Source: Chloropicon primus
Lineage: Eukaryota > Chlorophyta > Chloropicophyceae > Chloropicales > Chloropicaceae
Length of the DNA: 64,000 bases
Direction: 5' to 3'
NCBI GenBank assembly: GCA_023205875.1
Contig: CP060762.1
Coordinates: 558,001 to 622,000 of the forward strand
Part shown: positions 10,152 to 48,799 of the stretch, piece after piece
Numbering within the stretch: the first letter of the stretch is position 1
Layout: each line of letters starts with the position of its first letter
Program-made: the position numbers and the translations under genes
Notes under the pieces: generated by a model
What the model saw: the letters and a program-made list of their open reading frames with translations, nothing else
Told to the model about the DNA's origin: nothing
Database searches by the model: none

Positions 10152-10607
10152 ATGTCGATTGTGTTGCACTCCGAACGACGGCGCGCCTTGTCGTCGTTTC
10201 ATTCGAACGCTGCGGAGTCGCCTTCCGTGTGTAGCGGTCGGAGCGACTATACTTTGACGGTTGAGCCGTGTCCTCACGGGACTTTTGTTGCGTTGGTGAC
10301 GTCCGTGTCCCTGCTCGCACACATCCTCGGCGCTTCTCTCTGCTGGTGGCACCCTGCCGTTTCCCACGTGGCGTTTGGCGTGAGCGTTTTCCTCCACCTC
10401 GTCCTGAACGCGTACAATTTTTCTCTGCGGACTCAAGATGCGCGGTTTTCGTTTCTTCTGTCCTCTTGCTTACTTTTGAGTATGGTTTCATTCATGATTT
10501 GCGCGTTGACTTCTACAGGCGCGACTGTTTCCATCGTGTTTCATATACTTTTGATCATGCTGAACATGGTTCTTTTGATACATAATCCTAATGAGTACGT
10601 CCAATAG
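10152..10607 (+). CDS. Small four-helix membrane protein
   Basis: A 151-residue ORF starting at the ATG in GGTAAGATGTCG. After about 38 polar residues there are four hydrophobic segments, roughly 42-60, 64-83, 92-113 and 118-140, ending in a short NPNEYVQ tail. I do not recognise the family. The predicted location is a membrane. A longer upstream reading frame only translates the CCCTCC minisatellite. It is the first ORF of the island. Confidence 0.55.
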   Translation: MSIVLHSERRRALSSFHSNAAESPSVCSGRSDYTLTVEPCPHGTFVALVTSVSLLAHILGASLCWWHPAVSHVAFGVSVFLHLVLNAYNFSLRTQDARFSFLLSSCLLLSMVSFMICALTSTGATVSIVFHILLIMLNMVLLIHNPNEYVQ

Positions 10608-10762
10608 AGTGGAGACAGCCGCAGGGTCCTGAAGACGGATACGACGTCACCGTCCTTGGCAGCACTTGCATCTTCTTCCTCTGTCACGGCCAAGGTCGAA
10701 AATTTCGTACTACGACGACCGCGGTTTCGCGCTCCTTCACCACCGCTCCATTCGACGGACAT
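10541..10762 (-). CDS. Possible 73-residue orphan ORF
   Basis: An ATG-started ORF overlapping the tail of the membrane-protein gene on the other strand. A TATATAAA box lies about 25-30 bases upstream of its ATG (about 10786-10793 on the minus strand). There is no recognisable domain. It may be a chance ORF. Confidence 0.25.
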   Translation of the reverse strand: MSVEWSGGEGARNRGRRSTKFSTLAVTEEEDASAAKDGDVVSVFRTLRLSPLYWTYSLGLCIKRTMFSMIKSI

Positions 10763-10786
10763 TGCTAATGGCCTGTTTCGGATGCT

Positions 10787-11005
10787 TTATATACGTTCTC
10801 TCAATTGCTTTTGGGCCGATTCCATGCACAACGCGAACGTGACTTTGTTGTGTTTATACTTGGTTCTCGACAGTATAAAATCGAGGTAAGGGTGTTCATC
10901 CATGATGAAGCGTCCCAAGGGGTCATCGGGGACATGATACACAAGCCAATCGACGAGGTCTTCGTCCCGCACGATCTTCACGATTTCATCAAAAGGAGTC
11001 GACAT
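10787..11005 (-). CDS. 72-residue hypothetical protein
   Basis: An ATG-started ORF, acidic at the N-terminus (FDEIVKIVRDEDLVDWLVYH), with a mixed composition that looks coding rather than low-complexity. No family is recognised. Its stop codon lies inside the TATATAAA box that could serve the next leftward ORF, a sign of compact packing. Confidence 0.4.
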   Translation of the reverse strand: MSTPFDEIVKIVRDEDLVDWLVYHVPDDPLGRFIMDEHPYLDFILSRTKYKHNKVTFALCMESAQKQLRERI

Positions 11006-11086
11006 CGCTCAATTGAATGGATCAGAAAGAGAAACGAAACAAACGATACAATTCATCTTACAGAAACAAACGGGGGGCCCATCCGG

Positions 11087-11344
11087 TCAGTCACGCGCCC
11101 GTTGTCGCCGAGTCGCCTCGATTGTACGGATGCGCCATGAGGTGAGCGCGCTTAGCACTGACGATGCAACCACGCAGAGCGCAAGTACCCGCGTTTCGAT
11201 GGATAAACCTTCAAGGTGCTCGAAAACGAAGTCGTAAGGCGAGTGGTCGACTGCTGATATTCCTTCAATGACTTGAGGGGGCTGAATGATGTTGTGTCCT
11301 TCATTCTCCGCCGAAAAGAATGGTGTTTCTTCGAGGACTTTCAT
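11087..11344 (-). CDS. 85-residue single-pass membrane protein candidate
   Basis: Begins at ATG 11344. The first half is soluble (MKVLEETPFFSAENEG), followed by one hydrophobic segment VLALCVVASSVLSALTSW at about 53-70 and a basic tail RTIEATRRQRAR. The positive-inside pattern favours a type II or tail-anchored protein. No family is recognised. It is divergent from the repeat nuclease-like gene with an AT-rich gap between. Confidence 0.4.
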   Translation of the reverse strand: MKVLEETPFFSAENEGHNIIQPPQVIEGISAVDHSPYDFVFEHLEGLSIETRVLALCVVASSVLSALTSWRIRTIEATRRQRARD

Positions 11345-11507
11345 TGTTGCATTGATGTAGTACAGTGTGCACGTCAAATGATAATGTGGGTGAAAACAAA
11401 CACGGAGGTAAAAACTGTCCCGGTTTTAAAAAAATCGTCATTTTTTTGTTTTCTGCAGCGCACCGCCGCTTCGCAATGGCCGCATCACCGCGTTCGAGGT
11501 GCGCGTC

Positions 11508-14500
11508 ATGGCGTCGGACGCGCCGCCGAGCAAACGCCGCCGTGTCGACGACTACGACGTGCCGTCTCCGATCGGCGCGTCCAAGGCCGAGACACGTCAC
11601 GTCGCGCATGTGGCGCAGCTGTTGTTTGAGAACGGCTTGCTTGAGCAGGGCGTGACCGGGCGCTCGCTCGCGAAGCACCTGACGGAAGGCAAGACCCACC
11701 ACAACACCGATGCGTTCTTCAAGCTCACGAATGGCACGGAAGTGCTGTTCGAGTACGACCCGGGCTTCACGCACGGCGACTCCGACGTGGGACGCGACCA
11801 ACGCAAGACGACCAAGCTCCGCGAAATGTTCCCTGACGCGTTCGTGGTCCGCTTGCGCGTGGGCGCCGCACACTTCGAGCAGCTTTCGCAGTGGGGGGAC
11901 AACGTGCTCGTCGTCGTCACCGAGTCGCAATTACCGAACGTTGCCGCGTCAGCTGCTGTGACCGCCGTCGCGCAGCGCATCCATCAAGGCGGTGCTGCAG
12001 CGACCAAGGCGTGCCCGAGCAGCAACCATGACAACGCCGCCGCCAACGATGCCGCCGCGGACGTGTGGGCGCGCATGAGCAAGGAGTTTGAAGCCGCCGA
12101 GCAGCGCGTCGCGACGCTCGTGGGTGGTGATCTCGACCTGGCGCGAAAGCTCATGGCCACCCCCGGAGTGCCTTCGCGTGTCCTGACGGGAGCCTTCGAG
12201 AAAAGCATCAAAGGGTTGCAAGATCCCAAGTTCGGCATAACCAACTTGGGCACGTTTGTCTGCGGCGGCGTCGCTGCAAAGTTCGACGATCCGGAGAAAC
12301 TCTTTGACATCCTCACGGCGCTCAAGACGCGCTTCGGCATCAAGAGTCTCCAGACCTTTGTTTCAGACAGCGTTGCGGCGAGGTTTGACGATCCCGACGC
12401 GCTCTACGCCGTGCTCGACACTTTGAGGACGCGCTTCGGCATCAAGAGTCTCCAAACCTTTGTTTCAGACAGCGTTGCGGCGAGGTTTGACGATCCCGCA
12501 GCGCTCTACGCCGTGCTCGACACTTTGAGGACGCGCTTCGGCATCAAGAGTCTCCAAACCTTTGTTTCAGACAGCGTTGCGGCGAGGTTTGACGATCCCG
12601 CAGCGCTCTACGCCGTGCTCGACACTTTGAGGACGCGCTTCGGCATCAAGAGTCTCCAAACCTTTGTTTCAGACAGCGTTGCGGCGAGGTTTGACGATCC
12701 CGCAGCGCTCTACGCCGTGCTCGACACTTTGAGGACGCGCTTCGGCATCAAGAGTCTCCAAACCTTTGTTTCAGACAGCGTTGCGGCGAGGTTTGACGAT
12801 CCCGCAGCGCTCTACGCCGTGCTCGACACTTTGAGGACGCGCTTCGGCATCAAGAGTCTCCAAACCTTTGTTTCAGGAGGCGTTGCGGCGAAGTTTGACG
12901 ATCCCGACGCGCTCTACGCCGTGCTCGACACGCTGAGGACGCGCTTCGGTATCAAGAGTCTCCAGACCTTCGTTTGTGGTGGCGTTGCGGCGAAGTTTGA
13001 CGATCCCGACGCGCTCTACGCCGTGCTCGACACGCTGAGGACGCGCTTCGGCATCAAGAGTCTCCAGACCTTCGTTTGTGACAGCGTTGCGGCGAAGTTT
13101 GACGATCCCGACGCGCTCTACGCCGTGCTCAACACTTTGAGGACGCGCTTCGGCATCAAGAGTCTCCAGACCTTCGTTTGTGATGGCGTTGCGGCGAAGT
13201 TTGACGATCCCGACGCGCTCTACGCCGTGCTCGACACGCTGAGGACGCGCTTCGGTATCAAGAGTCTCCAGACCTTCGTTTGTGGTGGCGTTGCGGCGAG
13301 GTTTGACGATCCCGACGCGCTCTACGCCGTGCTCGACACGCTGAGGACGCGCTTCGGTATCAAGAGTCTCCAGACCTTCGTTTGTGGTGGCGTTGCGGCG
13401 AGGTCTGACGATCCCGACGCGCTCTACGCCGTGCTCGACACGCTGAGGACGCGCTTCGGTATCAAGAGTCTCCAGACCTTCGTTTGTGGTGGCGTTGCGG
13501 CGAAGTTTGACGATCCCGACGCGCTCTACGCCGTGCTCGACACGCTGAGGACGCGCTTCGGTATCAAGAGTCTCCAGACCTTCGTTTGTGATGGCGTTGC
13601 GGCGAAGTTTGACGATCCCGACGCGCTCTACGCCGTGCTCGACACTTTGAGGACGCGCTTCGGTATCAAGAGTCTCCAGACCTTCGTTTGTGGTGGCGTT
13701 GCGGCGAGGTTTGACGATCCCGAGGCACTCTACGCCGTGCTCGACACTTTGAGGACACGCTTCGGCATCAAGAGTCTCCAGACCTTTGTTTCAGACAGCG
13801 TTGCGGCGAGGTTTGACGATCCCGCAGCGCTCTACGCCGTGCTCGATACTTTGAGGACGCGCTTCGGCATCAAGAGTCTCCAGACCTTTGTTTCAGACAG
13901 CGTTGCGGCGAGGTTTGACGATCCCGCAGCGCTCTACGCCGTGCTGGACACTTTGAGGACGCGCTTTGGCATCAAGAGTCTCCAAACCTTTGTTTCAGGA
14001 GGCGTTGCGGCGAGGTTTGACGATCCCGCAGCGCTCTACGCCGTGCTGGACACTTTGAGGACGCGCTTCGGTATCACCTTTGTGAATAACAGCGTTGCGG
14101 CGAAGTTCGACGATCCCGACGCGCTCTACGCCGTGCTCGACACGCTGAGGACGCGCTTCGGTATCAAGAATCTCCAGACCTTTGTTTGCAATAGCGTTGC
14201 GGCGAAGTTCGACGATCCCGAGGCACTTTACGCCGTGCTTGAAGAGCTCGAGCAGATGGTCGGCAAAGGCGGCGTGCTGATAGCGGGTTCGAACGCCTTC
14301 GCGTCGCGCATGTTGAAGCCTGGGTTTGTGGACGCGGTAGTCGCATGCGGGGACGCTCTGTCGGTCCTGGGATTGGATCCCGTCAAAGAGTTGCGGACCG
14401 TGTTAAACAAGGAGAACGCGAAGTTGATGAACATGATCGGCACGCTCGCCGCCAAGCTGAAGGCGTGCAGCGACGAGGGCGCAGCGCACCAGCTGCTTGT

Positions 14501-14558
14501 TTCGCTGCGGAACAAGAAAAGGAAACACGAGGCCATGATTGCCATGATTGATGCATGA
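11508..14558 (+). CDS. TALE-like 34-residue repeat protein with nuclease-like N-terminus
   Basis: A 1016-residue intronless protein. The start is ATG 11508; an in-frame GTG lies 9 bases earlier. Residues 8-13 (SKRRRV) look like a nuclear localisation signal. Residues about 30-125 resemble the PD-(D/E)XK/Vsr-like nuclease fold common in large zinc-ribbon-linked families: D68, E82-Y83-D84, H89, R96-D97-x-x-K100-T101 and the strand FVVRLR. A helical linker follows. Residues 242-917 are twenty tandem repeats of 34 residues (one of 30), consensus FGIKSLQTFV-xxx-VAARFDDPAAL then YAVLDTLRTR, varying mainly at residues 11-13. A helical cap of 99 residues ends the protein. The repeat length and variable register match TAL effectors; the fold could instead be mTERF-like. 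DNA recognition and cleavage are inference, not shown by the sequence. Its stop overlaps the ankyrin gene start. Confidence 0.7.
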   Translation: MASDAPPSKRRRVDDYDVPSPIGASKAETRHVAHVAQLLFENGLLEQGVTGRSLAKHLTEGKTHHNTDAFFKLTNGTEVLFEYDPGFTHGDSDVGRDQRKTTKLREMFPDAFVVRLRVGAAHFEQLSQWGDNVLVVVTESQLPNVAASAAVTAVAQRIHQGGAAATKACPSSNHDNAAANDAAADVWARMSKEFEAAEQRVATLVGGDLDLARKLMATPGVPSRVLTGAFEKSIKGLQDPKFGITNLGTFVCGGVAAKFDDPEKLFDILTALKTRFGIKSLQTFVSDSVAARFDDPDALYAVLDTLRTRFGIKSLQTFVSDSVAARFDDPAALYAVLDTLRTRFGIKSLQTFVSDSVAARFDDPAALYAVLDTLRTRFGIKSLQTFVSDSVAARFDDPAALYAVLDTLRTRFGIKSLQTFVSDSVAARFDDPAALYAVLDTLRTRFGIKSLQTFVSGGVAAKFDDPDALYAVLDTLRTRFGIKSLQTFVCGGVAAKFDDPDALYAVLDTLRTRFGIKSLQTFVCDSVAAKFDDPDALYAVLNTLRTRFGIKSLQTFVCDGVAAKFDDPDALYAVLDTLRTRFGIKSLQTFVCGGVAARFDDPDALYAVLDTLRTRFGIKSLQTFVCGGVAARSDDPDALYAVLDTLRTRFGIKSLQTFVCGGVAAKFDDPDALYAVLDTLRTRFGIKSLQTFVCDGVAAKFDDPDALYAVLDTLRTRFGIKSLQTFVCGGVAARFDDPEALYAVLDTLRTRFGIKSLQTFVSDSVAARFDDPAALYAVLDTLRTRFGIKSLQTFVSDSVAARFDDPAALYAVLDTLRTRFGIKSLQTFVSGGVAARFDDPAALYAVLDTLRTRFGITFVNNSVAAKFDDPDALYAVLDTLRTRFGIKNLQTFVCNSVAAKFDDPEALYAVLEELEQMVGKGGVLIAGSNAFASRMLKPGFVDAVVACGDALSVLGLDPVKELRTVLNKENAKLMNMIGTLAAKLKACSDEGAAHQLLVSLRNKKRKHEAMIAMIDA
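12231..14258 (+). repeat. Array of twenty 102-base coding repeats
   Basis: Units start every 102 bases from 12231; the nineteenth, at 14067, is 90 bases because KSLQ is missing. Residues 12-13 read in order: GG, DS, DS, DS, DS, DS, GG, GG, DS, DG, GG, GG, GG, DG, GG, DS, DS, GG, NS, NS. Residue 11 is C, S or N. Residue 17 is K or R and residue 22 is D, A or E. Two nucleotide classes are present: units 2-6 and 16-18 (GGCATC, TTTCA, GCAGCG) and units 7-15 (often GGTATC, TTTGT, GACGCG). Confidence 0.95.
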
Positions 14559-15433
14559 CACCCCCCTCTTCTGGTGTTTGGAAGCCCTGGAGGGGGCGTG
14601 TTATTCGTGAGTTGCTTGAGGAATGGGTCGCACTCGCTCTCTCACCCTCATTTGATGCCCGCTCACGCACATACATAGGCGGATGGGATTCGTCCTTACG
14701 CATTTTGGCAATGTTTGACATGCCCGACCATCTTGAGAAGATGGTCAAGGTTGGCGTCTCGTATGCGTTGGAAGCCGCCCACGAAAGCGTGGACCGTTGC
14801 AGCTACGACTGCCTTCGTGTGCTGTTGAAGTTCGGTAATATTGAGCTCGACTCCGGTCTCGATGGGGACGATGAGTGGACGCTTGTTCTGAGGGCTGTCA
14901 TCAACGATCACCCCAACTGTCTTCGAATTCTTCTTGAACATGGCGCTGATCCGAACGTCCAAATTGACGGTTTATCCCCTATTCACGAAGCTGCGGAGAG
15001 GGGCCACGTCGAGTGTCTTCGTTTGCTCGTCGCTTACGGTGCCGAAAAGGACTCTCTCTTGGAGAGTGGTGACATGACCCCTCTGCAATTCTGCGTCCGC
15101 GGCGGCCATATCGAATGCTTGCGTTTTCTGCTTGACGTCGGAGCGTCGCCGGACATTGCGAACGTGGACGGCACCACACCCATTATTTATGCGGCTGCGG
15201 AGAACCAAGTCGAGTGCTTGCGCATGCTTCTCGAGTCCGGTGCGGACAAGGACAGGGCAAACGGCGCAGGTTTGACGCCCGTGCAGCATGCTCGAGATCA
15301 TGGTCATGCCAGGTGCCTCAAGCTTTTGCTTGAGGCCGGAGCAACGCTGCCGGGGGCCCTAACGGGGGCCCTGACGGCCCCCGAACCCCCACGCTTGCAG
15401 CGGGGGTTGGAAGGGGGCTTGCCCCCTCCGTGA
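14555..15433 (+). CDS. Ankyrin-repeat protein
   Basis: A 292-residue ORF whose ATG overlaps the TGA of the preceding gene (ATGA, 14555-14558). About five ankyrin repeats span residues 105-265: CLRILLEHGADPNVQ, SPIHEAAERGHVECL, TPLQFCVRGGHIECL, TPIIYAAAENQVECL and TPVQHARDHGHARCL. The first 100 residues are helical and unassigned. The last 28 residues (from LPGALTGALTAPEPPR) are translated from a GC hairpin cluster and look acquired. The overlap is unusual for a nuclear genome and suggests polycistronic or foreign ancestry; an in-frame downstream ATG at 14711 is the alternative start. Confidence 0.75.
   Translation: MTPPSSGVWKPWRGRVIRELLEEWVALALSPSFDARSRTYIGGWDSSLRILAMFDMPDHLEKMVKVGVSYALEAAHESVDRCSYDCLRVLLKFGNIELDSGLDGDDEWTLVLRAVINDHPNCLRILLEHGADPNVQIDGLSPIHEAAERGHVECLRLLVAYGAEKDSLLESGDMTPLQFCVRGGHIECLRFLLDVGASPDIANVDGTTPIIYAAAENQVECLRMLLESGADKDRANGAGLTPVQHARDHGHARCLKLLLEAGATLPGALTGALTAPEPPRLQRGLEGGLPPP
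15350..15431. repeat. Cluster of GC-rich hairpins
   Basis: Three stem-loops in a row: CGGGGGCC/GGCCCCCG with loop CTGAC, AACCCCC/GGGGGTT with an 11-base loop, and AGGGGGC/GCCCCCT with a TT loop. A 12-base direct repeat CGGGGGCCCTAA/CGGGGGCCCTGA opens the cluster. It forms the 3' end of the ankyrin ORF. Confidence 0.85.
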
Positions 15434-15582
15434 GTGGAAAAGCTTCCCCGAGCCCCCACGCATTGAACTGCGCTACGAGTCAGTTTGTGTCGTGTGGCTC
15501 TTTCGTAAACCGTACAAACCCACGGGAGACTCGTTCAAAATGCGTCTAACCCTAATTAGCCCCCCGGCGCCGGCGCCGGCAG

Positions 15583-16374
15583 CACGTCCGTGACTTGGTT
15601 TACTCTCTCTACGCCGGCTTGTGCTCAGCGTTTTACGTCATTCCCCCGCCCGGGTCATCGGACAGCTTCACCTGCCTCTTTCAGGGCCGGGACATCGATG
15701 GGGGCCGGGGGGTCAGAGCAACGCTGAGCGGTGCGAGCGATGGCATGATTGAGTTGCTCCGGGAGGACTTTGGGTTGGAGCCTGTTGTGTGTGGCTTGGG
15801 GGAGAGGGGGAAGAGAATCGCAGACAAGCTGAAGATGGCCGGCGGGGATGGGCACAAGGTCCTTCTGTTCCTTGGGAGGGAGCAGGTTCACGGGCTCTTT
15901 GACTTTTTGATCACCACCTGTGGCAAAACGTATCACAAGCAGAGAGATGTGCCGACCCTGTTGGCCCCCGTGCCCTTTGAGGGCTCAAGCGTGAAGCGTT
16001 ACGCTGGGGTGTACAGGAAGAACACTCTTCTGAAACACAAGCACGAGAGGGGGCTTCAAACCTTCACCTTAACCTTTCAGGACGACGGAGGTCTCTTCCT
16101 GCCTCCCTGGGTGGTCGATCGGCTCTGCACAACCTTTCGCAAGACCCAAAGTTCCTTCTCGATGACCAGTGATTCGGGGGTCGACTTCAAAACAACGTCG
16201 TTGCAGTGTGGTGGTGGCGAGGACGGCAACAACAACGAGGACGTGAACGAGCGTGGAGAGGAAAGGTCGGAGTATGGAGGCGGGTTCTGGGATACGGAAG
16301 AGTGCGACAAGTGGCAGGAACGAGGAGGCAACATTGCGAACCTTCAGTGCGAGAAAGGTGTGTTTGTAATTTAG
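15583..16374 (+). CDS. DONSON: DONSON C-terminal half (5' part absent)
   Basis: About 263 residues without an ATG at the head. The frame opens at HVRDLVYSLYAGLCSAFYVI just after GGCAG at 15582, which could be a splice acceptor. Blocks typical of the DONSON C-terminal domain are present: SFTCLFQG, VHGLFDFLI, PTLLAPVPFEGSSVKRYAG and FLPPWVVDRLCTTFRKTQ. DONSON helps assemble and protect the CMG replicative helicase. The N-terminal half expected for the family (about 250 residues with a DWSLKT-like block) is not found upstream. Either the island sits in an intron or it replaced the 5' end. Codons are host-like. Confidence 0.72.
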   Translation, partial: HVRDLVYSLYAGLCSAFYVIPPPGSSDSFTCLFQGRDIDGGRGVRATLSGASDGMIELLREDFGLEPVVCGLGERGKRIADKLKMAGGDGHKVLLFLGREQVHGLFDFLITTCGKTYHKQRDVPTLLAPVPFEGSSVKRYAGVYRKNTLLKHKHERGLQTFTLTFQDDGGLFLPPWVVDRLCTTFRKTQSSFSMTSDSGVDFKTTSLQCGGGEDGNNNEDVNERGEERSEYGGGFWDTEECDKWQERGGNIANLQCEKGVFVI

Positions 16375-16391
16375 GCTTTCGTGTGTGCATT

Positions 16392-16769
16392 TCACAACGC
16401 GGTCTTCCAGGTCTTGCTGAACATGGCGAGGGTGCTTGGAAAGAGCTCGACCATGACTTCAGGGCTGCTCCCTCGCTGCAAGCACTCCTCGAGCAAGTAA
16501 AGCTCCTCGAGAAGGGTCCGGACAGCTTTGGCAGACTTCATCAGCTTTGGTTGGATCTCCCCCAATTCCCCCAGAAGGAACTGGTGCGTGCAAGCCGGGT
16601 CCCTGAATTCGTTTTGGAGGTTCACGAGCTCCTCCATCTCCCTCGCCAGCCCTTTGATCCTCTCCTCCACTGTCCTGGCCCCTGGACTGAGATTCGCGTT
16701 CCCGGCGCCCCGTTTCATCTTCCCTCTCCTGTACGCGGTGTACCTCGCGCTCATGGAATCCCCCTTCAT
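16392..16769 (-). CDS. 125-residue hypothetical coiled-coil protein
   Basis: Starts at ATG 16769 (MKGDSMSARYTAYRRGKMK). A basic head is followed by predicted helices with heptad-like leucines (ARTVEERIKGLAREMEELV and KAVRTLLEELYLLEECLQ). Only 17 bases separate its stop from that of the DONSON fragment, tail to tail. An open frame without ATG extends a short way upstream. No family is recognised; a small complex subunit is possible. Confidence 0.5.
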   Translation of the reverse strand: MKGDSMSARYTAYRRGKMKRGAGNANLSPGARTVEERIKGLAREMEELVNLQNEFRDPACTHQFLLGELGEIQPKLMKSAKAVRTLLEELYLLEECLQRGSSPEVMVELFPSTLAMFSKTWKTAL

Positions 16770-17053
16770 GTAGACATCGCCGTTGGCCTCTGACCTGGCC
16801 TCTGGGGCTGACGTGGATGACGAGCATTACTATTAATACAAGGGAGGCTCGAGACACGACGAGGCAGACGACTCAAAGCCGGGACAGACAAGGCCAGCGG
16901 GGGAAAACAAACGAAAGAGAGCACACAGAGCGAAGCTACGTCTCGCGGGCTTTCGAGCGGTGGGTCGCTTGTGTTGTGCGTCGTCCTGTGGAGTGCGTAA
17001 GGTCACCGGCAAGTCCGAGGGTTTTTCTTCTTTGGGACACTCAGAGTGGGATC
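16770..17053. promoter_or_regulatory. BCAT promoter with recurrent element
   Basis: CTACGTCTCGCGGGCTTTCG at 16935-16954, pointing toward BCAT, is one of the clearest copies of the window-wide element. It is followed by GGGTCGCTTGTGTTGTGCGTCGTCC, a diverged form of the downstream blocks. A fragment GTCTCGAG on the opposite strand near 16841 may serve the leftward gene. Confidence 0.6.
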
Positions 17054-30735: not shown

Positions 30736-32223
30736 ATGGAGGAGCCCGGGATTTGCGGAGAGGGGTTAGCCTTGAGGTCGGGAACGGACGGAACCCTCGA
30801 CGACGTCAGCGATGACCAGCAGACGGACATCTCGAGAATCATGCACGCTGCGATAGCCGAGAAGGTATTCCCTGGAGGCGTGGTGTGCTATGGGAAGCTG
30901 AGCCCTGACGGAAAGGTCTTGCTTAGTGGCACGGAAGCGTTTGGAACGCTCACCTTCGAATCGAACGTCCCTGTGCAATCGGACTCCGTCTTCGATTTGG
31001 CTTCGCTCACCAAGGTGCTGGTGACGTCCACTGCGGTTCTTCTCCTCGTCCAGAAGGGTGATCTGGAACTGGACGGCCTGGTGAGTCAGTATCTTCCAGA
31101 GTTCGGGGTGAACGGCAAGGAGTCCGTCACGATAAGACACCTCCTGACCCACACGGCGGGCCTCAAGGCCTGGTACAACTTCAACGCGATGGGCCTCGAC
31201 ACCAAGGAGAAGGTCGTGGACTTTGTGCTTCAGGCTCCGTTAGTCTATGCCCCTGGCGCCGAATACTGGTATAGTGACCTGTCCATGATTGTTTTAGGTG
31301 TCATCGTGGAGAAGATTTCCGGACAGCCCCTGGACGGGTACGCCAAGGAGTTCATCCTCCGGCCGCTCGGAATGGAGTCCAGCGGGTACTACCGACCGGT
31401 GAGCACCACCGAGGCGGGGGAAGAGCCCGAGACACCGATGCCGACGAACATTGTGCCTACCGAAGTGGACACGAAAGTGAGGGAGAGGCTCCTTTGGGGT
31501 GAGGTGCACGACCTGAACGCTTACCTCATGGGTGGGGTGGCCGGCCACGCGGGGTTGTTCTCAAACGCCTTGGACATCTCAAAATTTTGCTCTGCCGTCT
31601 TGCGGAAGGGACTCATCGAAGGGGCGGCCGGGGGAAGGTTGTACTCGGAGAGCTCTTCTTCCCTGTTCCTCTCGAGGCTCTCGGATTCGTCGCCTTACGG
31701 ATTCGGTTGGAACCTCTACGGCGAGCCACGGAGGAAGGACACGGAGGAGAAAGCGGTGGAGGAAGAGGCTCAGCCCCAGCCCCCCCCACCCGCCGGTGCA
31801 GAGAAAGCGGGGGAGAGAGAGGAAAGGACCGAGAAACGCCCAGAACCGATCCCTTACCGGTCGGGGGGCAGGTTTCTGAGCCAGGAAGCAGTGGGCCACA
31901 CCGGCTTCACCGGAACGTCGATCTGGCTGGACCCAGCCAAGAACTTTTACGTGATTCTCCTCACCAACGCCGTGCACCCCAACTCCCTGAGCGAGAGCGG
32001 GGACAAAATCAAGCAAGTGAGGCCAGCCATCGCAGAGGCTGCTTTCCGCCTGTGCTTTCCCGAGGAAGAAGGCCTCGAGGAGGTCGACCGAAAACCGCTC
32101 CTTCCCCCGGGGAGTGACAAGGTTGGCAGCATCTCCAGCGGCGCCATTCGCATGCAACGGCATTGGAGGCAAGTCAGGGATATCACCTGCTTCCTTGCTG
32201 TGTGCTTGTGGTCCACCCTGTAA
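30736..32223 (+). CDS. Serine beta-lactamase-fold hydrolase
   Basis: A 495-residue intronless protein of the class C beta-lactamase/esterase family. The catalytic S90-x-x-K93 is in DLASLTKVLVTST, Y179 in YWYSDL is the second motif, and HTG in GHTGFTGTSIW is the third. A Pro/Glu-rich insert (about residues 335-375) is unusual. Eukaryotic members (LACTB-like, EstB-like) act as esterases or peptidases rather than in antibiotic resistance. A predicted C-terminal hydrophobic end (ITCFLAVCLWSTL) could be a tail anchor. The gene was probably acquired from bacteria long ago, since codon use is local. Confidence 0.85.
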   Translation: MEEPGICGEGLALRSGTDGTLDDVSDDQQTDISRIMHAAIAEKVFPGGVVCYGKLSPDGKVLLSGTEAFGTLTFESNVPVQSDSVFDLASLTKVLVTSTAVLLLVQKGDLELDGLVSQYLPEFGVNGKESVTIRHLLTHTAGLKAWYNFNAMGLDTKEKVVDFVLQAPLVYAPGAEYWYSDLSMIVLGVIVEKISGQPLDGYAKEFILRPLGMESSGYYRPVSTTEAGEEPETPMPTNIVPTEVDTKVRERLLWGEVHDLNAYLMGGVAGHAGLFSNALDISKFCSAVLRKGLIEGAAGGRLYSESSSSLFLSRLSDSSPYGFGWNLYGEPRRKDTEEKAVEEEAQPQPPPPAGAEKAGEREERTEKRPEPIPYRSGGRFLSQEAVGHTGFTGTSIWLDPAKNFYVILLTNAVHPNSLSESGDKIKQVRPAIAEAAFRLCFPEEEGLEEVDRKPLLPPGSDKVGSISSGAIRMQRHWRQVRDITCFLAVCLWSTL

Positions 32224-44872: not shown

Positions 44873-46756
44873 CTAGCCGAAGACAAGGGCGAGGAGCCCC
44901 CTTCTCAGCTTCTTCTTTCCATCTTTCCTCTTGAGGATTTGGTAGGCGGCGAATCGGAGGGCGATGATGAAGCCAAGGTTGACGAGCAGCCAAAGACCCC
45001 ACTTGACGTCGTCCATGCCGTTGACCACTGCGAGGGCATCGTCCCCCCTCTCGCCGTAGCACACGGCGTCACCGGGCTTGCACGCGGTGAGGTTCGTTCC
45101 CGAGAATTCCAACCAGGCCTGGCTCTCCCAGGTGTACTTGAATGGCGACAGGTAGTGGATCCACCTGACCGCCCAGGTAATGCTGTTCGTCTCGAGGAAG
45201 AGCCCGTTGAGCACGAAGTACATGCTGATGAAAGAAGCCATAACGGCGATGGCTGCGATGAAGTTGTTGATCAGGACGCCAAGTATGAAAGCAAGCGTTT
45301 CCACCCAGTACAGGTGCACGAAGAACACCAGGACCTGGGCGAGGTACCTGTCGAACTTGGGGTTTAGCCCAACAATCCAGTAGACTGGCGTGATCGACAA
45401 GAAGCTGAGCATGAGGACGAAAGGCAGGTGGCAAATGCTGATGCTTGCCATCAAAGACGCCGGGTGGTACATGTTGTTCATCCTCTCCCTGTTAATGGTT
45501 CCCGCATCGAGAGAATACACGGGGGCCGCGGCCATCGCCATGTAACTCATGAAAGCCGTAACCCAGTTCCACAGGAACATCCTGTTGAAGATGTCCGACT
45601 GCTTCAAGGGGTTCTGCCAGCCAATGTTGAAGTAGCACAATCCGAAGAAGAACGACATGTTGAGGTACAGCGCGACTCTTGGCAAATATGCCGTTGGATC
45701 CCGCAGGTAACCGATGAACGTCCTGCTGAGCAGAACCGGGAGCTGCTGCGAGAGCCTTAAATTCTTGTGCCCCTTGCCGCTCTCGAGCTCCTTGCTCCCG
45801 AGTGAGTTGGCCACCTCCAGCAGCTCCTTGGCCTCGTTGGACTGGGACCACTCCGAGACGAGCTTTTCGACTTCCTCTCGAGAATCCCTAAAGTCCGAGT
45901 TCGTGACCTCCATGAGGAAGTCTGCGGGGTTGCACAAACTCGGGCACTTTAGGTCAAACTGAGTCTCGAAGTACGCGCAGGCGCTCTTCGCGGGGCCAAA
46001 GTAAGCGATGGAGCCTTGGCTCAGCAGCATGATTTGATCAAAGGACAAGAATATCCGTGACTGAGGCTGGTGAATGCTGCAGACAATGGCCTTGTTGAAC
46101 TTGGTAGCAATCGAATCGAGCAAGTCCATGATGGCTGCCGCCGAGGCAGAGTCCAGGCCAGACGTCGGCTCGTCGAGGAAAAGGATCAGAGGGGATTTTA
46201 GGAGCTCTATCGCTAGAGACAGCCTCTTCTTCTGTCCTCCACTTATGCCTCTCAGCAGCAAGTTCCCCACCTTTGTGTCCTTGCAGCTGCTCAGGCCGAC
46301 CGCCTTGATGAGTGACTCCACCTTCCCCTTCACCTGGTCCGCGGACTCCCCGAGGTAAAGACGAGCCGCATACTGCATATTCTCACTCACTGTCAGAGCA
46401 GGCCACAAAAAGTCGTCTTGCATCACGTAGGCACAGTGCTTGTGGAACAGACTCTCTGTCATCACCTGCCCGTTGATCTTAATCTCCCCTTCGACAGGCG
46501 TCGACATCCTCAGCGCCAAGGCGTCCAACGTGGTCGTCTTCCCCGACCCCGAGGCACCAATGATGGCCAAGGTCTGTCCAAACTTCACGTATCCCGTTAT
46601 TCCTTTGACGAGCCATTTTCCCTCATCAGTGCCGCCGGGCAAGCGATACCCAACCTTGTTGAACACGAGGGCGCCATCTTTCCCAAGAGACTGCTCCTCC
46701 TTCACAAAGGCCTCCGTAGAAGGACTCTTCTTCATTCCTGTCTCACTCTCCCCCAT
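44873..46756 (-). CDS. ABCG-type half-transporter
   Basis: A 627-residue intronless protein with the ABCG order: nucleotide-binding domain first, then six membrane helices. Walker A is GASGSGKTTT, the Q-loop lies in YVMQDDFLWPALTVSENM, the signature is ISGGQKKRLSLA and Walker B is LILFLDEPTSGLDS, so ATP hydrolysis should be intact. The membrane part runs from about residue 360 to the basic C-terminus (KRKDGKKKLRRG). A half-transporter must pair with itself or a partner. Substrate is not deducible; sterol, lipid or pigment export is usual. The start MGESETG is preferred over an upstream ATG lying in simple repeats. Confidence 0.9.
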   Translation of the reverse strand: MGESETGMKKSPSTEAFVKEEQSLGKDGALVFNKVGYRLPGGTDEGKWLVKGITGYVKFGQTLAIIGASGSGKTTTLDALALRMSTPVEGEIKINGQVMTESLFHKHCAYVMQDDFLWPALTVSENMQYAARLYLGESADQVKGKVESLIKAVGLSSCKDTKVGNLLLRGISGGQKKRLSLAIELLKSPLILFLDEPTSGLDSASAAAIMDLLDSIATKFNKAIVCSIHQPQSRIFLSFDQIMLLSQGSIAYFGPAKSACAYFETQFDLKCPSLCNPADFLMEVTNSDFRDSREEVEKLVSEWSQSNEAKELLEVANSLGSKELESGKGHKNLRLSQQLPVLLSRTFIGYLRDPTAYLPRVALYLNMSFFFGLCYFNIGWQNPLKQSDIFNRMFLWNWVTAFMSYMAMAAAPVYSLDAGTINRERMNNMYHPASLMASISICHLPFVLMLSFLSITPVYWIVGLNPKFDRYLAQVLVFFVHLYWVETLAFILGVLINNFIAAIAVMASFISMYFVLNGLFLETNSITWAVRWIHYLSPFKYTWESQAWLEFSGTNLTACKPGDAVCYGERGDDALAVVNGMDDVKWGLWLLVNLGFIIALRFAAYQILKRKDGKKKLRRGLLALVFG

Positions 46757-47234
46757 GCTCCTGTTGCTGCTGTTGCTGCTGTTGCTGTTGATGATGACAA
46801 AGGTGAGAGGAGAGGCGATGAGAGGAGAGGAGAGGAGAGCAAACCAATGCTTGACACGATGCGATGCGATGCGATGGCCCAAGTCTCCGTCTTGCGATTC
46901 GTGTCCTTGTCTGCTGTCTATCTGTCAAGCATCAAAGGCGCAACCTAAAGATTCTAAATTGAACTTATCCAAAAGAGTTGGAAGAGCTGGCCTCGGCCTT
47001 GGCTTTGTGGACAGAGAGAGGAGGAGGCGGAGAGGGACAGGAGCAGCAGGAGGGACAGGAGGAGGCTTGCTTCGGCTTCGGTTTGCATTACTTGTCATTC
47101 TCCCCTGGAGTTTACATTCTCTTCCACTTCCACCACCCTTGGGCGTACAGTTGGAAGAGCTGGCTTGGGCTGCATGGTGCAGGGGTGTCGGGCTTGGAAA
47201 GGTCGGGGTGTGCTTGTCCGGTCTTCAAAGGATT
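46757..47234. other. Divergent intergenic region
   Basis: The gap contains a GTTGCTGCT trinucleotide run (46762-46796) and short GAGAG and GCGAT repeats (46805-46875). A duplicated GTTGGAAGAGCTGGC block occurs at about 46978 and 47151. No gene or copy of the recurrent element is seen. Confidence 0.5.
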
Positions 47235-48799
47235 ATGAGATGGGGTACATTCGTTTGGCTGACCGTTACCTTTGTGATGTGTGGCGCAACCTTCCTGTCC
47301 AGCCACTACCATCTTACTGAGAAGGGCCACTTCACGCCTCTGAACAATCGGCTTCACTTTCTTGGACACCATTCTGAGGCCAATGCGATGTCAAGCTTCC
47401 TCGTCCACTTGCTGGACAGGAAGGAAGGGGGTCAGGTTTACGAAGAGGCCGAGGATATATCCGAGTTCGAGGAAGCGGAGGAGATCGTCGAGGAGGTTGA
47501 CGACGATGACGACGATGACAACGACGACGAAGTGGATGCCTTGGAAGGGGAGGAGGAGGAGGGGGTGGAGGGCGAGCAGGACCAGGGGCAGGGAGACGGG
47601 AACGGTGATGGGGAAGAGCCCGGGGATGGCCTGACGCTGAATGTAGGCCCCAGAAGGAGAAGGAGGAGGAGGAGGGGCGGAGGCAAGAACGGTGACCGGA
47701 AGAAACCGGACCACCCGAGGCTGAAAAGGTATGTTGAAAGATGTCCTGGGAGCTGCATTCTGACTCGATTGAGGAGGCAGAACGCCCGGGTGCACACGGG
47801 AAACGCGAGCCACTTTGACGCCATTGTCTCGTCAGATGACGGGAGCGAGTGCAAGGGCAAGTGCAGTGGCCACGGGTTCTGCAAGGAGGACAAGTGCGTG
47901 TGCATGGCGTTGTACGAAGGTGAATACTGCGACAGGCCTCGGCCTCTTCCCAAGGGGCTCCACTCTGCCTTCGACAAGAATGATTTCGTCCTGAATGCGG
48001 AGACCCTCAAGAGAAAGGTGGGACAGATCATCACGTACAAAACAAACCCCAAAAAGGGTGACGGGCTCACGCACACGCTCAAGCTATCCGTGTCCGAGCA
48101 GATGGTGAACTTGCTCCCAGAGTCAGACATTTTGTCGGACAAGTTTTTTGAGACTTGTGCGATTGTAGGCAGCTCGGGGGTCCTGCTTGCTTCCCAAAAA
48201 GGGAAAGAGATTGATTCCCACTCGGCTGTCATTCGATTGTAAGTTGTGCCCCAGCTCGCACCGCCCCCCTTCCCTCTCTCGTTCCGTTTTTAGGGAGGGA
48301 TCCATCCGCTGACAACGATTCGTGTCCCTTCTCGACCTGCCACGCGCACAGCAACAAGGCCCCGACCAAGGGGTTCGAGAAGTACGTGGGAAGCAAGACC
48401 ACCCTGAGATTGGTGAACACCAACCACGCCCTCATGATGCACGAGAACGAGACGATCATCCAACAAATGCAGAGCCGCACGGGTTGGCTCATCTACAGAA
48501 AGATCATGAAGCAGACCTCGAACGAGAGCAACCACTACGCGTTTCACCCTGACTTCTCGACCTACGTGAGTTCAAACACAAGGGCCTTGCCCACGAACGG
48601 CTACTTCGCTCTGTTCTTGGCGCTGCAAAGGTGTCAGAAAGTCAGGATGTATGGCTTCTTGCACTCTTCGAAGAAATACAGTTACCATTATTTCAACAGA
48701 GAAAGACCGACGAGGGGGGGATCCGCGATCCACGACTACGCCGCCGAGCACGTCGACATTCTAAGGCTCGCCAACGCTTCTGTGATCGAGATGATGTAG
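47235..48799 (+). CDS. GT29 sialyltransferase-like protein with EGF-like motif
   Basis: Two exons, 47235-48238 and 48352-48799 (483 residues), with donor CGATT/GTAAGT and acceptor CACAG/C. A short cytoplasmic tail and signal anchor (FVWLTVTFVMCGATFL) give type II Golgi topology. A long acidic stem is followed by a basic arginine run. An EGF-like motif CKGKCSGHGFCKEDKCVCM precedes the catalytic domain. The L-motif is CAIVGSSGVLLASQKGKEID, continuing across the intron as IRFNKAPTKGFEKYVGSKT. The S-motif is LPTNGYFALFLALQRCQKV and the VS-motif HDYAAEHVDIL has both H and E. Green algae carry GT29 proteins, though their donor sugar is unproven. Confidence 0.88.

Follow-up and report, generated by a model that had tools for sequence, protein, structure and literature searches.

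A candidate DNA-addressed nuclease with a TALE-like repeat array in the green alga Chloropicon primus

What would a protein do that joins a nuclease-like domain to a long array of near-identical repeats, each distinguished mainly by a few variable residues? This question is raised by a gene in a 64,000-nucleotide stretch of the Chloropicon primus genome (the window; C9:558001-622000), an assembly of 17,584,162 bases in 20 contigs. Table 1 of PMC12301720 gives 20 chromosomes and 17,584,162 bp for strain RCC138, and CCTAAAA-type telomere units are present on the three contig ends examined; the repeat gene thus belongs to the nuclear genome of a marine green alga. We favor, with a probability of about 0.58, a nuclear, protein-coded, DNA-addressed nuclease that uses its array as the reader.

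The open reading frame (ORF) at 11499-14558 on the forward strand is intact, with 1019 open codons from a GTG at 11499. As the initial annotation had it, the first ATG lies at 11508, giving a coding sequence of 1016 amino acids (11508-14558, ORF call) that needs no intron. All parts of the protein are on the same strand. The basic stretch SKRRRV, also noticed in that annotation, lies at residues 8-13 from the ATG (11529-11546) and resembles a nuclear localization signal. It is followed by an N-terminal nuclease-like domain (11571-11987; residues 25-163 from the GTG, delimited by model and alignment), a helical linker with a degenerate N-cap (12036-12251), the array of 20 repeats (12252-14279), and a C-terminal cap with a FASR motif (14280-14558).

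Positions 11-13 of the successive repeats read CGG SDS SDS SDS SDS SDS SGG CGG CDS CDG CGG CGG CGG CDG CGG SDS SDS SGG NNS CNS. The spacing is 34 residues at 18 of 19 intervals; the remaining interval, a shortened unit of 30 residues before the NNS repeat, is kept in all three genomic copies of the gene. When 36 internal repeats of the window gene and of its contig 15 copy are compared, the main non-synonymous columns are 11, 12, 13, 17, and 22. Three further columns vary in 2 of the 36 repeats each (F/S, D/N, and S/N), and all other changes are synonymous. The earlier description of twenty near-identical repeats that vary at these five positions is confirmed. The triplets are encoded by a small set of DNA cassettes, TCA GAC AGC, TCA GGA GGC, and AAT AAC AGC for those beginning with S or N, and TGT GGT GGC, TGT GAT GGC, TGT GAC AGC, TGC AAT AGC, and TGC GGC GGC for those beginning with C, with different codons specifying the same residues. 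Since TCA, GGA, GGT, and GGC codons are mixed in the window, a pure adenine/guanine transition origin of the triplet alphabet, in which all codons would be of the RRY-RGY type, is unlikely.

Searches of 5.8 billion proteins returned relatives P0002-P0029. Counting the window's own protein, these make 29, and alignment assigns the nuclease-type N-terminal domain to 20 and a second type to seven (P0011, P0014, P0019, P0020, P0024, P0025, and P0028; P0025 is incomplete and P0020 is the least alike). P0013 is an array protein lacking an N-terminal domain, and P0015 (E 1.2e-3), which looks bacterial and has different repeats, was rejected as unrelated. The sources include the algae Tribonema minus (P0020) and Ochromonadaceae sp. 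CCMP2298 (P0025), a Megaviridae environmental sample placed in Mimiviridae (P0018), and other environmental samples. P0002, from eukprot, is 90% identical across 423 residues; its predicted protein also carries an amine-oxidase-type region (PF01593) and another N-terminal region in addition to the repeat gene, a combination that may reflect a fused gene model. In viral and prokaryotic contigs no relative was found by a scan that depends on conserved stretches of peptide or on exact matching of a DNA pattern, and that may overlook divergent relatives. A weak match to P0010 on contig 1 (E 0.048) was discarded, as the ORF there looks like a membrane protein. The family is real and widespread, and the databases searched give it no name.

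The relatives share one small alphabet. We collected 175 repeats from 24 proteins (the near-copies P0004, P0007, P0008, and P0017 and the unrelated P0015 were excluded), using a permissive pattern that constrains residues around positions 11-13 and not those positions themselves. The 12-13 pairs are DG (44), GG (40), NS (32), NG (23), DS (16), SG (6), GS (3), and others (11), and position 11 is C in 119 repeats and S in 39. Some odd triplets (KKK, VTL, ISI, MCE, and GRG) are probably misplaced repeats. Repeats are mostly 32-38 residues long, and the consensus repeats of 19 arrays share a mean identity of 70% within columns -2 to +8, a value partly imposed by the pattern, and 17% outside; core F, V, and A are among the few invariant columns in an alignment of 12 four-repeat stretches. 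Residues 11 and 13 are associated, S11 occurring with S13 in 26 of 39 repeats and C11 with G13 in 96 of 118 (Fisher p 1e-7, the repeats not being independent). In 15 arrays with at least four internal repeats, compared over 34 columns each, variability at position 12 is surpassed by no other column in six arrays and by no more than one in 11; the binomial p for the six is about 3e-6, with ties and with arrays that are not fully independent. The concentration of variability at position 12 exceeds chance. The exceptions are P0009, P0019, P0020, and P0023, with 5, 5, 18, and 3 columns more variable, respectively, and in the window gene position 11 is as variable as 12-13.

Comparison of the genomic copies shows how the array changes. 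A segment spanning 10595-15590 (forward strand) is duplicated on contig 14, identical outside the array except for one gap preceding it, and the gene copy there is broken by a frame interruption. Another, spanning 11489-14928 (forward strand), is duplicated on contig 15, where the gene is intact and the array has 22 repeats. The 760 bp preceding the array (11489-12248) are identical on contig 15 and, the one gap apart, on contig 14; from 14160, inside the last repeats, identity extends for 769 bp with contig 15 (to 14928), the first 120 of which are the array end, and for 1431 bp with contig 14. Between these flanks, the window and contig 15 arrays differ by the presence of two repeats, and 7 of the 20 aligned repeat pairs differ; codon 12 is altered in pairs 8 and 11, and in pair 8 this is the sole change. 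The flanks being near-identical and the arrays different, the arrays change faster than their flanks, with assembly error inside the repeats as a caveat. At the end of the contig 14 duplication begins a segment (15587-16792) that is 99.75% identical to contig 19 (L031:4333-5539), and the two together form a mosaic of recent segmental copies.

The N-terminal domain is likely a nuclease domain. We aligned 14 of the 20 nuclease-type proteins, excluding six near-copies. The pattern noticed in the initial annotation, D68, E82-x-D84, H89, and D97-x-x-K100 in ATG numbering (11709-11807, forward strand), is present in full: D68, D84, H89, D97, and K100 do not vary among the 14 domains, and E82 is found in at least 90%. 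An R115-x-R117 motif accompanies this set. The predicted model has an alpha-beta-beta-alpha-beta core, with helices and strands over residues 29-161 and a predicted local distance difference test (pLDDT) score of 82-92 over residues 31-160. D68 and E82-x-D84 are present for a D...(D/E)xK site, the lysine being solely K100 on the next helix. This order of elements resembles the Vsr/DUF559/REase_MTES_1575 group of PD-(D/E)XK proteins, and the layout E-x-D-(G)-x-x-x-H ... D-x-x-K ... R-x-R is that of the group; the algal domain differs in being fused to a repeat array and in its low family scores. Matches to Pfam PF18741 are weak, below the Pfam cut-off in 14 of 14 domains, with a best REase_MTES_1575/DUF559 family score of E 0.017 and 15.7 bits against a cut-off of 38.2, and the curated families have no match in this genome. 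PADLOC matched 0 of 14 domains and NCBIfam gave two stray matches. PDB sequence matches of the domain profiles (a xylosidase, E 0.39; an Elongator subunit, E 0.43) are at chance level. PHROG 9902, which has no assigned function and matches 4 of 14 domains (best E 1.4e-5), was judged uninformative; it may be a related phage nuclease.

The seven sister proteins carry the second N-terminal domain instead of the nuclease-like one, joined to an array of the same kind. Residues 13-190 of P0024, the only sister member modelled, are predicted to adopt a uracil-DNA glycosylase (UDG) fold (Z up to 10.4), with pLDDT of 38-83 in blocks of ten and Foldseek E of 0.05 and above. The domain resembles the UDG superfamily (family 4, UdgX, and MUG/TDG) and differs in its fusion to the array; Pfam gave no UDG match for the four N-terminal domains scanned. 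The array and the FASR-containing cap are homologous between two branches whose N-terminal domains are unrelated.

Does the array then belong with TALEs (transcription activator-like effectors)? The algal repeats fall around the TALE length of 33-35 residues and their variability centers on positions 12-13, though P0009, P0019, P0020, and P0023 fit less well. In the window model the triplet is entirely coil in 16 of 20 repeats, and some repeats have a short first helix or none; in the P0024 model the following helix begins at or within the triplet. With six family members as queries, Pfam gave no TAL effector family at E<=1; sequence searches of PDB with the protein or with a profile of 12 four-repeat stretches gave no TALE chain at E<=10. 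Among the 50 Foldseek matches listed, five are AvrBs3, dHax3, or repeat-variable-diresidue entries, with E of 0.085-0.23 and 15-17% identity, and they stand alongside other solenoids; VIA-align has no TALE among the 50 matches listed for the window model, which is no evidence of differing folds. mTERF is absent from the family and structure matches listed in the sequence and structure comparisons. Array matches in Pfam (DUF4113, YAcAr, PBP1_XylR, and others) were set aside as repeat-summed scores with almost no single passing stretch, and PDB matches of the repeat profile (21 rows; best EFR3, E 0.043) as chance level. A TALE-like mode of working is nevertheless likely. The natural TALEN-like (TALE nuclease) architecture first proposed is partly supported, as a mode of working with a likely nuclease domain and a putative DNA target, not as membership of the TALE family by sequence.

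In the mechanism we propose, the tandem repeats would form an alpha-solenoid in which every repeat recognizes a single base through its loop at 11-13, the triplet order would spell an address some 20 bases long, and the PD-(D/E)XK-like domain would cut or nick at or beside it. Recombination and triplet changes would rapidly re-edit the arrays, as expected under genetic conflict, whether in defense against viral or mobile DNA or as a selfish element; the giant-virus record also holds a relative. An address search with a guessed code gave 2 and 3 sites at 1-2 mismatches, compared with 3 and 2 for reversed-pattern controls, and is uninformative. We extend this, at slightly less than even odds, to the proposal that a modular DNA-reading repeat with a 5-7-word alphabet arose in algae and giant viruses independently of bacterial TALEs and was coupled naturally to two kinds of DNA-damaging enzyme, a nuclease and a base-excising glycosylase, with array recombination rewriting the addresses during host-virus conflict and residue 12 (D/N/G) as the main base reader.

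Three other explanations were weighed. The array could read RNA or single-stranded nucleic acid as PPR or OPR solenoids do, beside an RNA-processing or inactive nuclease fold. PPR proteins are likewise alpha-solenoids of ~35-residue repeats with code positions and gave the best solenoid Z, but the algal variable residues probably lie in a loop and no PPR family matches by sequence; we regard this as unlikely. Slightly less probable still is that the solenoid serves protein binding or scaffolding, with a loop that varies through turn-forming constraint and relaxed or diversifying selection and with N-terminal domains that act elsewhere. N, D, G, and S all favor turns and an ankyrin-repeat gene adjoins the repeat gene; however, the same few pairs recur across arrays ~17% identical elsewhere, the array is common to two unrelated and probably DNA-acting domains, and residues 11 and 13 covary as described above. 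The least probable of the three is a DNA-binding array with a catalytically dead N-terminal domain, a DNA-addressed regulator. D84 stands where the canonical (D/E)xK has its lysine, and 3 of the 13 structure matches listed for the domain are to RNA polymerase subunit E, an inactive protein related to this fold; yet the five residues invariant in every aligned domain exceed what the fold alone seems to need.

The surrounding genes include ordinary eukaryotic ones (aminotransferase IV, a gamma-tubulin complex protein, Sec6, and MCM). The ankyrin-repeat ORF (14555-15433, forward strand; ORF list and domain scan) lies directly 3' of the repeat gene, overlaps its stop, and is co-duplicated on contig 14 and only partially on contig 15. 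Elsewhere in the window, the ORF at 30736-32223 has a beta-lactamase-fold domain (PF00144, E 5.9e-59), and that at 46440-48242 a C-terminal match to glycosyltransferase family 29 (sialyltransferase-like, E 2.4e-10).

A screen of 47 million proteins for TALE-like repeats reported three novel types, in Cryphonectria, Phytophthora, and Trypanosoma (PMC5472282), none of which has the algal repeat sequence. PMC11417379 reports STAR, MOON, pTERF, NORD, and MIRAGE, PMC12482156 reports TAL-like proteins in Legionella, and a term search found no TALE in the main text of PMC6731263 or PMC12301720. The literature listed holds no prior account of the family, which is weak evidence of novelty as preprints and most subscription papers lie outside its coverage.

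Like TALEs and TALE-like proteins (Xanthomonas TALEs, RipTALs, BurrH/Bat, MOrTL1-2, and STAR), the algal proteins carry ~34-residue helical tandem repeats that are near-identical except at 12-13, with the variable residues probably in a loop, and the letters D, N, G, and S recur at the variable sites of both. They differ in varying at position 11 as well, in a core of T-F-M/V-[C/S]-[N/D/G]-[S/G]-V-A-A with no detectable sequence relation, and in occurring in eukaryote genes and a giant-virus record with a natural N-terminal enzyme-like domain. Described TALE-like proteins are not known to be nuclease fusions. In nature, sequence-addressed nucleases depend mostly on guide nucleic acids, and most known modular protein readers are bacterial. 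If our reading is right, this family would provide a compact new DNA-reading repeat and natural counterparts of TALENs and glycosylase editors, and would point to an unrecognized layer of genome conflict in marine plankton; with few triplets and plentiful natural variants, the code question is directly testable. Engineered TALENs likewise combine a nuclease domain, FokI, and an address array in one chain. In the algal protein this combination is natural, the nuclease-like domain lies at the N-terminus and is of PD-(D/E)XK/Vsr-like type, and code and cutting are predicted, so that the TALEN design would exist in nature, in a eukaryotic and viral family.
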